NCBI GenBank assembly: GCA_016872515.1
Contig: VGZR01000006.1
Coordinates: 1 to 64,000, forward strand
Source: SAR202 cluster bacterium
GTDB taxonomy: Bacteria > Chloroflexota > Dehalococcoidia > Lucifugimonadales > VGZR01
Direction of reading: 5' to 3'
Length of the DNA: 64,000 nucleotides
Position 1 is the stretch's first letter. Every line of letters starts with the position of its first letter. Under the pieces are notes generated by a model. It had not been told where the DNA came from, searched no databases, and saw only the letters and a list, made by a program, of their open reading frames with translations. This document shows, in pieces, positions 60,438 to 63,675 of the stretch. A program made the position numbers and the translations under genes.

Positions 60438-61637
60438 ATGAAACGGGCTATTTCGGGCTTACTATTGGCGGCAGGGCTCGCGGCCCTCATATCGTGCTCG
60501 GGCAGTCCGGCCGCAACCGCGCCGGCCGAGGTTGCGTCGAAAGAGGCTGTCAAAGCACAGGCGACGGTGGGCCAGTCCACCTCCGAGCAACCCTCCTCTG
60601 CTGCTTCAACCGTCAAAGGGACACCAGGCAAGTTCGCCCGCATAGAAGACCTGAAGGTCCTTCGGGAGTCGCCGTCCGCAGCCCTGCTCCCCGACGGGCG
60701 CGTCCTGGTCATGGGCGGGCGGACAAGGGCCGGGGGCTATTGGCTGCAGTACGAGCAGAGCGCCGAAGCCTTCGACTTCGCCACCGGCAAGTGGTCGCTG
60801 ATCAACGACATGAACGGGAAGCGGGCCGATGCGGCCAGCATCGTCCTGAAGGACGGCCGGATCCTCGTGGCAGGCGGCGAAGGCCCTCAGAACATCCCGA
60901 TCACATCCGCCGAGCTCTACGACCCGGCGACTGGCGCCTGGACGCCCACGGGCCCGATGAACAACGCCCGAGACCTGACGGATGCCGTGCTGCTCCAGGA
61001 CGGCAGGGTGCTGCTGGCCGGAGGCCGTTCCGAGACTCTGGGCCTCGACAGCAGTGTGGAGATCTACGACCCGCAGACGGGCCAGTGGACGCTCGTGGCG
61101 CCCATGGCCGAGGCTCGGATGGACCACACGACCACGCTGCTTCAGGATGGCAGAGTGCTAGTCACGGGCGGAGGCAAGGTGGACGGCCCTTACCTGAAGA
61201 GCGCGGAGGCGTACGACCCTGCCACCGACACGTGGTCGCCTGCAGGCGAGATGAGCCAGAGCCGCGCCGCCCACACGGCGGTCCTCCTCAACGACGGCAG
61301 GGTGCTGGTCGTCGGCGGGCGGGGCAAGCGGCTGTCCGCCGACATCTGGGACCCGGCCACCAACTCCTTCACCGCCACAGGCTCCACCAGTGTCGCGCGG
61401 GCTGACCACAGCATGACCCTGCTTCCTGACGGGCGCGTCATCGTCATCGGAGGGGCGGGCAACCGGGACTCGTCCGAGATATGGGATCCCGCGACGGGCC
61501 AGTGGACGATGGGCCCGACGATGGAGATCGCCCGCTACAACCACGGTGCCGTAGTACTTGCCGACGGCCGCATCGTCGTGGTCGGCGGCAACAGCGCCGA
61601 GGGGATGACCATCTCCGCGGAGATCTATACGCCCTGA
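60438..61637 (+). CDS. Kelch-repeat lipoprotein (second paralogue)
   Basis: The 399-residue product has a lipoprotein signal ending LAALISCSGS and a propeller of about six kelch repeats (DGRVLVMGGRT, DGRILVAGGEG, DGRVLLAGGRS, DGRVLVTGGGK, DGRVLVVGGRG, DGRVIVIGGAG). It is the same length and layout as the protein at 57691, with clear divergence. It lies alone between the intact tRNA-Gly and a copy of that tRNA's 3' end. GGGAGG precedes the ATG. Confidence 0.86.
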   Translation: MKRAISGLLLAAGLAALISCSGSPAATAPAEVASKEAVKAQATVGQSTSEQPSSAASTVKGTPGKFARIEDLKVLRESPSAALLPDGRVLVMGGRTRAGGYWLQYEQSAEAFDFATGKWSLINDMNGKRADAASIVLKDGRILVAGGEGPQNIPITSAELYDPATGAWTPTGPMNNARDLTDAVLLQDGRVLLAGGRSETLGLDSSVEIYDPQTGQWTLVAPMAEARMDHTTTLLQDGRVLVTGGGKVDGPYLKSAEAYDPATDTWSPAGEMSQSRAAHTAVLLNDGRVLVVGGRGKRLSADIWDPATNSFTATGSTSVARADHSMTLLPDGRVIVIGGAGNRDSSEIWDPATGQWTMGPTMEIARYNHGAVVLADGRIVVVGGNSAEGMTISAEIYTP

Positions 61638-62244: not shown

Positions 62245-62919
62245 CTAGGGTTTCGCGAGCTCGTCGAACACCCGAAGCCATGTCGCGTCGTCGCCCTTGC
62301 CGTAGCCGTCGCGATAGACGATGACGCCGTCACGGCCAAAGGCGAGCTTGGTGGACTGAACGCGGACGTTGAGGTCGGCCAGCATGCGCGGCCCAGCCGT
62401 GGCCACAGGCCAGGGGTAGCCTTGCTGCTGGCGGTACGCCTCTAGCTCCTCGATGGTCTCGCTGGGATCAACGCTGACGGAGTAGAAGGCGACCGCGTCC
62501 TGGTACTGCGGGTAGAGTTTCTTCATGCGCCGCAACTCGGCGCGACAGGTCGGTCACCACGTCGCCATGAAGAAGAGGAAAACCGGCTTTCCCTCGGCGA
62601 GAAGGTCAGCAGACGTCTTCGTAGAGCCGTCGGCGAGGCGGATGGAGAAGTCGGGGATGTGGTCGCCGACCTGGTTGCCCACCTTAGCGGCGGGGGCCTG
62701 CGTCGGCTCAGTGGGTGCGGTCGTGGGACTCGGGGCGGCCTCCCCTGCCCTGCCCTCGACGGCGATAGCGGTTGCCTGGGCAGCAGGCGTGTCCTGCGCC
62801 GCGGGTGCAGCCGGGGCAGCCCCACCGCAGGCGACGGCGAGAACCACGGCTGCCACGAAGGGCAACCACGACACTCGCTGCCATATCCCGCTCTTGTTCA
62901 CCGGTCTCATCTTGACCAT
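62245..62919 (-). CDS. TlpA-like thioredoxin lipoprotein with TGA at the first redox Cys (candidate selenoprotein)
   Basis: From the ATG at 62919 (AGGAG four bases upstream) the frame codes a signal peptide with Cys31, a Pro/Ala/Thr linker, and an AhpC-TSA/TlpA domain: GDHIPDFSIRLADGSTKTSA and PVFLFFMATW. Codon 122 is TGA (plus 62554-62556), followed by P-T-C-R-A-E-L and a normal thioredoxin-fold remainder (FYSVSVDPSETIEELEAYR, STKLAFGRDGVIVYRDG) to 62245. The TGA stands exactly at the first Cys of the family's W-C-P-T-C motif, so read-through as selenocysteine would give a U-x-x-C redox centre. If not decoded, the gene is a pseudogene. The exported enzyme would reduce or oxidise thiols. Confidence 0.7.
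62527..62553 (-). promoter_or_regulatory. SECIS-like hairpin directly after the TGA
   Basis: On the minus strand, 10 nt after the TGA comes GCGCCG, loop AGTTG, CGGCGC: six G-C pairs with the loop starting 16 nt after the TGA and G as its second base. This meets the loose bacterial SECIS pattern as I remember it. The stem also follows from the codons for R-A-E-L-R-R in a GC-rich gene, so it may be fortuitous. Confidence 0.4.
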
Positions 62920-63009: not shown

Positions 63010-63675
63010 GTGCAACAGGCGGAAACGGCACAAGAGTCCCCCAGGCGGCCCTCAACCAAGAAGGTGCTGGCCATCGCGGCCGCAGCCGTTGCGCTGGCCG
63101 CGTTCCTGGCGCTGCTCTCGTGGGGGCTAATCAGCAAGGCGCCTGTGACCGGGCTGAGCGGCATGACCCGTGTGGAAAAGCCCGCGCCCGAGTTCGCCTT
63201 GCCGACCTTCGACGGCGGCACGTTCCGCCTGTCCGAGCATCTTGGCAAGCCCGTCGTCATCAACTTTTGGGCGTCGTGGTGCCCGCCGTGCCGGGACGAG
63301 GCGCTCGTGTTGGAGGAGGCCTGGCGCGAGTACGCGCCTCGGGGCGTCGTGTTTGTGGGCGTGGACATCCAGGATATGGAGGCCGACGCGGCGGCGTATC
63401 TGCGCGAGTTCGCCATCACCTACCCCAACGGGCGCGACGTGGACGGCAAGGTCACGGTGGACTATGGGGTCATCGGACTCCCGGTGACGTTCTTCATCGG
63501 TGAGGATGGAACCGTGGTGCGCCGCTGGGTCGGCGCGGTGCGCCCGGCGGAGCTGCGGGCCTGGGTCGAATCGCTGATTGCCGGAGAGACGCCAGCGGGC
63601 GAGACGCCGGGCGAGAATCCGGACAAGTTCTTCCGGCTCGGGCAGGACAAGCTGGAGCAGAAGCCGTCGGAATAG
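63010..63675 (+). CDS. TlpA/ResA/CcmG-like membrane-anchored thioredoxin
   Basis: The 221-residue product has one N-terminal membrane helix (VLAIAAAAVALAAFLALLSW) and an exported thioredoxin fold with PAPEFALPTFDGGTFRLSEH, the redox motif WASWCPPCRDEA (Cys91, Cys94), FVGVDIQDMEADAAAYLRE and the cis-Pro region GVIGLPVTFFI. Such proteins reduce cytochrome c or other exported disulfides. The tail is Glu/Pro/Gly-rich. The GTG start is chosen because TGA closes the frame used by the upstream ATG. It is divergent from the TGA-containing relative, 90 bases away. Confidence 0.87.
   Translation: MQQAETAQESPRRPSTKKVLAIAAAAVALAAFLALLSWGLISKAPVTGLSGMTRVEKPAPEFALPTFDGGTFRLSEHLGKPVVINFWASWCPPCRDEALVLEEAWREYAPRGVVFVGVDIQDMEADAAAYLREFAITYPNGRDVDGKVTVDYGVIGLPVTFFIGEDGTVVRRWVGAVRPAELRAWVESLIAGETPAGETPGENPDKFFRLGQDKLEQKPSE

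Follow-up and report, generated by a model that had tools for sequence, protein, structure and literature searches.

The gene at positions 62919–62245 on the minus strand of the SAR202 DNA stretch analysed here (the window; 64,000 nucleotides) almost certainly encodes a selenoprotein, in which the internal TGA at codon 122 is read as selenocysteine (Sec). This reading, put forward in the original prediction, is supported by the Sec machinery of the genome, by homologues with TGA or Cys at the same codon and by a hairpin under RNA-level selection; the frame, the machinery, the conserved UGA, the covarying SECIS hairpin and the fold were all computed here. The gene starts with an ATG at 62919 and consists of 224 codons and a TAG stop in a single frame. 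Its sole internal stop is the TGA at 62556–62554 (minus strand), which is located within FFMATW-U-PTCRAEL (TGA translated as a residue) and was assigned from the sequence directly and from homologues. The TGA provides the first residue of a U-x-x-C redox motif (U of WUPTC), and the second residue is Cys125, encoded by a TGT codon (62545–62547, minus strand). Translation bears out the predicted full-length frame with one stop, a TGA at the first Cys of W-C-P-T-C. The codon number 122 and the positions 62554–62556 had been given correctly, and the strand, which had been left unstated, is the minus strand.

From its N terminus, the encoded protein has a signal peptide containing the lipobox-like sequence LAVAC-G (Cys31; 62818–62919, minus strand), then a linker rich in Pro, Ala and Thr, and then a thioredoxin domain, as read from the translation and Pfam matches. 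The signal peptide is a probable lipoprotein export signal, and a simple pattern search of 131 homologous frames detects a lipobox-like motif N-terminal to the domain in 80. The ribosome binding site, predicted to be good, is visible in the sequence as AGGAG, 4 nt ahead of the ATG.

The genome (2.28 Mb in 91 contigs; 94% complete) encodes the complete Sec trait, comprising SelA, SelB, SelD and tRNA-Sec. The selA, selB and selD genes are matched at 2.6e-165, 1.4e-106 and 1.2e-120, respectively, and the tRNA-Sec with the anticodon UCA is found by both Rfam (70 bits) and ARAGORN. All four components that the original prediction proposed to look for are thus present. Moreover, selD carries an in-frame TGA of its own, at CAGUAAK.

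Homologues were fetched and aligned from 250 genomes of the order, which includes SAR202. The close homologues match the selenoprotein over the full domain, and nearly all of them contain exactly one internal stop, a TGA. The TGA at codon 122 is shared by 131 distinct homologues, nearly all from the same order and together representing about 95 genomes, and Cys125 is retained in each of the 131. Beyond the order, a search of 400 genomes from across the phylum yielded two further UGA forms only (G417 and G305). A separate search for relatives in genome_contigs returned a single locus, from a SAR202 MAG. Codon 122 encodes Cys in six members of the subfamily (L033, L049, L061, L062, L125 and L126) and Trp (TGG) in one homologue (L080, from G249). 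The expectation that homologues carry either TGA or Cys at this codon therefore holds with the single exception of Trp, and no different or additional stop occurs in any listed homologue.

This distribution bears on the possibility that the gene is a pseudogene or the product of a sequencing or assembly error, in which a chance TGA at a Cys codon would leave a truncated, non-functional protein. A single substitution suffices to turn TGC or TGT into TGA, and a comparable hairpin follows 2.6–12% of the TGA triplets in the window by chance. Against this explanation, the same TGA recurs in the 131 distinct homologues, the hairpin covaries and no break interrupts the frame on either side of the TGA; the last point had been predicted and is borne out by the homologues across the full domain. 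Because a genome of the same genus (L025) and 93 other genomes have the same TGA, a sequencing error is very unlikely. The pseudogene or error explanation is refuted by the homologues, and the chance that it nevertheless applies is very small.

The SECIS hairpin (GCGCCG-AGUUG-CGGCGC; 62527–62543, minus strand) starts 10 nt after the TGA and was characterized by its fold, covariation and codon bias. It is formed by a 6-pair stem and the 5-nt loop AGUUG, which begins 16 nt past the TGA, with an MFE of -12.0 kcal/mol. Re-folding reproduced the predicted 10-nt offset, six-pair all-GC stem, 5-nt loop and 16-nt spacing. The published bSECIS rule specifies a loop of 3–9 nt, a stem of 4–16 bp, a spacing of 16–37 nt and an MFE of at most -7.5, as well as a G among the first two loop bases with G or U as the next base (PMC13188914). 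The window hairpin agrees with this rule (6 bp, 5-nt loop, spacing 16, MFE -12.0), as had been anticipated for the loose bacterial SECIS rule. The window contains 1547 TGA triplets, of which 12% satisfy a comparable SECIS rule and 2.6% are followed by at least six contiguous Watson-Crick pairs. The hairpin taken alone is therefore weak evidence for selenocysteine and was rejected as proof. The finding exceeds chance because the 131 distinct homologues keep the TGA at the same codon together with a covarying hairpin.

All six pairs of the hairpin form in 119 of the 131 TGA sequences, and five pairs form in the other 12. The hairpin occurs in two registers, the second of which has a single bulged base in its 3' strand. 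Covariation was assessed for the main register on 37 distinct sequences, using shuffled and slid controls. In this set, 98.6% of the cells are paired, compared with 80.7% in shuffled and at most 56% in slid controls, and both bases of the pair are changed in 35 cells, compared with 8.3 in shuffled controls. Compensatory changes are observed in five of the six pairs. Codon usage is also constrained. The Leu in the loop is encoded by TTG or TTA in all 108 cases, and TTR accounts for only 16% of the Leu codons in the rest of these genes. The preceding Glu is encoded by GAG in 121 of 121 cases, compared with 63% of Glu codons elsewhere in the same genes. Where the Glu is replaced, the codon is GCG or TCG, so that the loop G is kept. 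The hairpin is under RNA-level selection, and the protein code alone is insufficient to account for the covariation and codon bias. In the six Cys members of the subfamily, only 1–4 hairpin pairs are retained. In one of these (L062), the GAGTTG loop persists above a decayed stem, which is what a lost SECIS element should leave behind.

The distribution of Sec and Cys forms was compared with that of selA. Of the 95 listed genomes with the UGA form, 88 have a selA that scores over the cut-off. The seven UGA genomes without a full selA comprise six that are 60–83% complete and one with a partial match only. The UGA–selA association is significant relative to the remaining genomes of the order by Fisher's test (p = 1.2e-4, uncorrected for relatedness). 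The Cys forms of two genomes (G245, 97% complete; G151, 91% complete) occur where no selA scores over the cut-off. The family f35 has the Cys form, though most of its genomes retain selA.

These data also speak to a reading of the UGA that would involve no selenium, whether through simple read-through, a code-4-type tRNA, the insertion of Cys or Trp, or a stop that gives a short regulatory product. Some read-through occurs in all bacteria, and one tandem copy from G249 (L080) encodes Trp at codon 122. However, TGA is found only at the catalytic Cys position in the aligned homologues, once per domain, the genome has all of the Sec machinery, the SECIS hairpin covaries, and Cys replaces TGA in the two near-complete genomes without selA over the cut-off. 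A reading of this kind is thus highly improbable. L080 itself retains a complete SECIS hairpin, and either Sec was lost recently in this copy or its TGG is a sequencing error.

In a quick tree with canonical Cys TlpA proteins as the root, five changes are enough; support is moderate and several branches are long. As judged from the sequences, a history of one Sec gain, three changes to Cys and one change to Trp would fit this tree. The L061 locus of f35 has the same neighbourhood as the window gene (aminotransferase, SDR, ABM monooxygenase and a divergent Cys TlpA; translations read), and L061 and the window gene therefore represent a syntenic Sec/Cys pair. In the window, the divergent neighbour (63010–63675, plus strand) is a Cys-containing TlpA/ResA-like protein with the sequence WASWCPPC and Pfam matches to AhpC-TSA and Redoxin. 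The divergent pair of a selenoprotein-family gene and a Cys TlpA gene is also found at L025, L049 and L061, and the neighbouring TlpA is a candidate partner of the selenoprotein. In many genomes of the order, from several families, the selenoprotein gene and selA share a contig and lie roughly 8–15 kb apart (for example, G035, G038, G181–G184, G187–G195, G019 and G032). In the genome of the window, selA is not near the selenoprotein gene, and the regions between the two genes in several other genomes gave no pointer to function.

The selenoprotein is probably a lipoprotein that is exported and works as a thiol-disulfide oxidoreductase, combining a ResA-like fold with a Sec/Cys pair. Its structure, modelled with Cys in place of Sec, is predicted with a mean pLDDT of 84.7 (>90 in the domain). 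The best Foldseek match is of the ResA type (4nmu_D, rmsd 1.8, TM-score 0.89 by target length), CcmG is also among the best matches, and a profile search matches ResA and DsbE, which together identify a ResA/TlpA-type thioredoxin fold. The protein does not reach the cut-offs of the NCBIfam models for ResA and DsbE. The UPTC sequence constitutes a CxxC/UxxC-type active site. The cis-Pro of canonical TlpA proteins is absent at the aligned position, where the Sec forms have Ser (100), Ala (20), Met (7) or Pro (1), and the six Cys forms have Ser or Asp; all eight canonical Cys TlpA paralogues aligned with the subfamily have Pro. Since the cis-proline shapes substrate binding in thioredoxins, its replacement suggests that the chemistry may differ. 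The description 'TlpA-like' in the original prediction thus holds for the fold and the motif, but canonical TlpA/ResA have a cis-proline that is missing from this subfamily.

The main functional rival of the oxidoreductase reading assigns a different chemistry to the same selenoprotein, that of a peroxidase or peroxiredoxin-like reductase in which Sec122 would reduce peroxides and Cys125 would resolve the intermediate. Consistent with this role, the top Pfam match is AhpC-TSA (with Redoxin also matched), Ser or Ala replaces the canonical cis-Pro in 120 of the 131 Sec forms, and UxxC proteins of pfam00578 have been named Prx-like (PMC2398784). However, the WUxxC motif and the best structural matches, ResA and CcmG, are of the thiol-disulfide oxidoreductase type, and the peroxiredoxin motif (PxxxTxxC/PxxxTxxU) is absent from the sequence, which reads FFMATWUPTC instead. 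Peroxidase-like activity is accordingly a possible but rather unlikely role.

From these features we infer Sec incorporation, lipidation and the chemistry of the oxidoreductase as follows. SelA and SelD would produce Sec-tRNA(UCA), which SelB would bring to UGA122 under the guidance of the hairpin that starts 10 nt after it. The ribosome would insert selenocysteine at this codon rather than terminate. The full protein would then be exported and lipid-anchored, and would act outside the cytoplasm as a thiol/selenol-disulfide oxidoreductase. Sec122 is the putative nucleophile and Cys125 the putative resolving residue, and the oxidized form would contain an Se–S bond. A CcdA/DsbD-type electron donor was searched for, and the genome (94% complete) gave no DsbD_TM match.

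The window gene belongs to an already known kind, the UxxC selenoproteins with TlpA, redoxin or Prx-like folds. The UxxC selenoproteins of the Global Ocean Sampling data include 321 sequences of COG0526 (Trx-like 1), 225 of pfam00578 (Prx-like 1) and 68 of pfam08534 (Prx-like 3) (PMC2398784), and a 2026 inventory lists the UxxC families cd02966 (thiol-disulfide isomerase-like), PF00578 and PF08534 (PMC13188914). The earlier statement that redox-active UxxC selenoproteins are known in thioredoxin-like families is confirmed by both sources. The window protein resembles the Trx-like 1 and cd02966 selenoproteins in its thioredoxin fold, the Sec at the first position of UxxC, its occurrence in marine-type bacteria and its Cys homologues, but its subfamily, compared with them by description only, lacks the cis-Pro, includes tandem copies and two-Sec fusions and is concentrated in one order. 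It shares Pfam assignments and the Sec motif with the Prx-like 1 or Prx-like thiol:disulfide oxidoreductase (pfam00578) and Redoxin (PF08534) selenoproteins, likewise compared by description only, whereas its structure is closest to ResA. ResA, TlpA and CcmG (DsbE) have in common with it the fold, the WxxxC-type motif and extracytoplasmic anchoring (predicted for the window protein), but Sec replaces the nucleophilic Cys, Ser or Ala replaces the cis-Pro and the scores are below the NCBIfam ResA and DsbE cut-offs.

Relative to the published families, compared by description only, the order-wide spread, the cis-Pro replacement, the tandem copies and the double-Sec fusions seem to be additions. 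Among the open-access papers searched, none joined SAR202 and selenoproteins. The chances are about even that these surface selenoproteins constitute a clade of their own that spans the order, in which Sec faces Ser or Ala in place of the thioredoxin cis-proline, and that this clade grew through tandem duplication and through fusions giving lipoproteins with two Sec domains. Such a clade would imply an extracytoplasmic redox function that depends on selenium and is peculiar to SAR202-type Chloroflexota. The analysis adds a well-supported selenoprotein subfamily to a widespread and mostly uncultured lineage. Standard annotation would miss the genes of this subfamily or break them in two at the active site. 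Its Sec, Cys and Trp versions, including one syntenic Cys form, provide a natural series for following Sec gain and loss alongside the RNA signal.

Tandem selenoprotein copies are found at 30 of the 100 fetched loci, with Sec codons 0.7–1.4 kb apart on the same strand (for example, three copies at L050, and L034 and L035). Three loci (L048 in G018, L106 in G163 and L114 in G165) contain two thioredoxin domains in single open frames of about 470–520 codons, connected by a Pro/Thr-rich linker, with one TGA per domain at UPxC. Their sequences indicate that they are probable two-selenocysteine lipoproteins.

Four further AhpC-TSA-type genes of the same genome contain one in-frame TGA each (L145, L147, L148 and L152 on contigs C8, C5, C8 and C7, with the motifs TSGUTDQ, VFUGIC, SWUACR and YCUINC, respectively). 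Each TGA is at or adjoins the expected redox position, and possible SECIS hairpins are seen by eye after several of them. These four genes, selD and the window gene are six selenoprotein candidates of the genome. A SECIS model built from the family, including the window sequence, gave no other clear match in the genome despite these other TGA-containing redox genes; the model is therefore family-specific and not a general SECIS detector. Near the selenoprotein gene, the window also encodes a Kelch-repeat lipoprotein (60438–61637), and a similar Kelch-type protein adjoins the tRNA-Sec gene on contig C11 (L001, 1–969).
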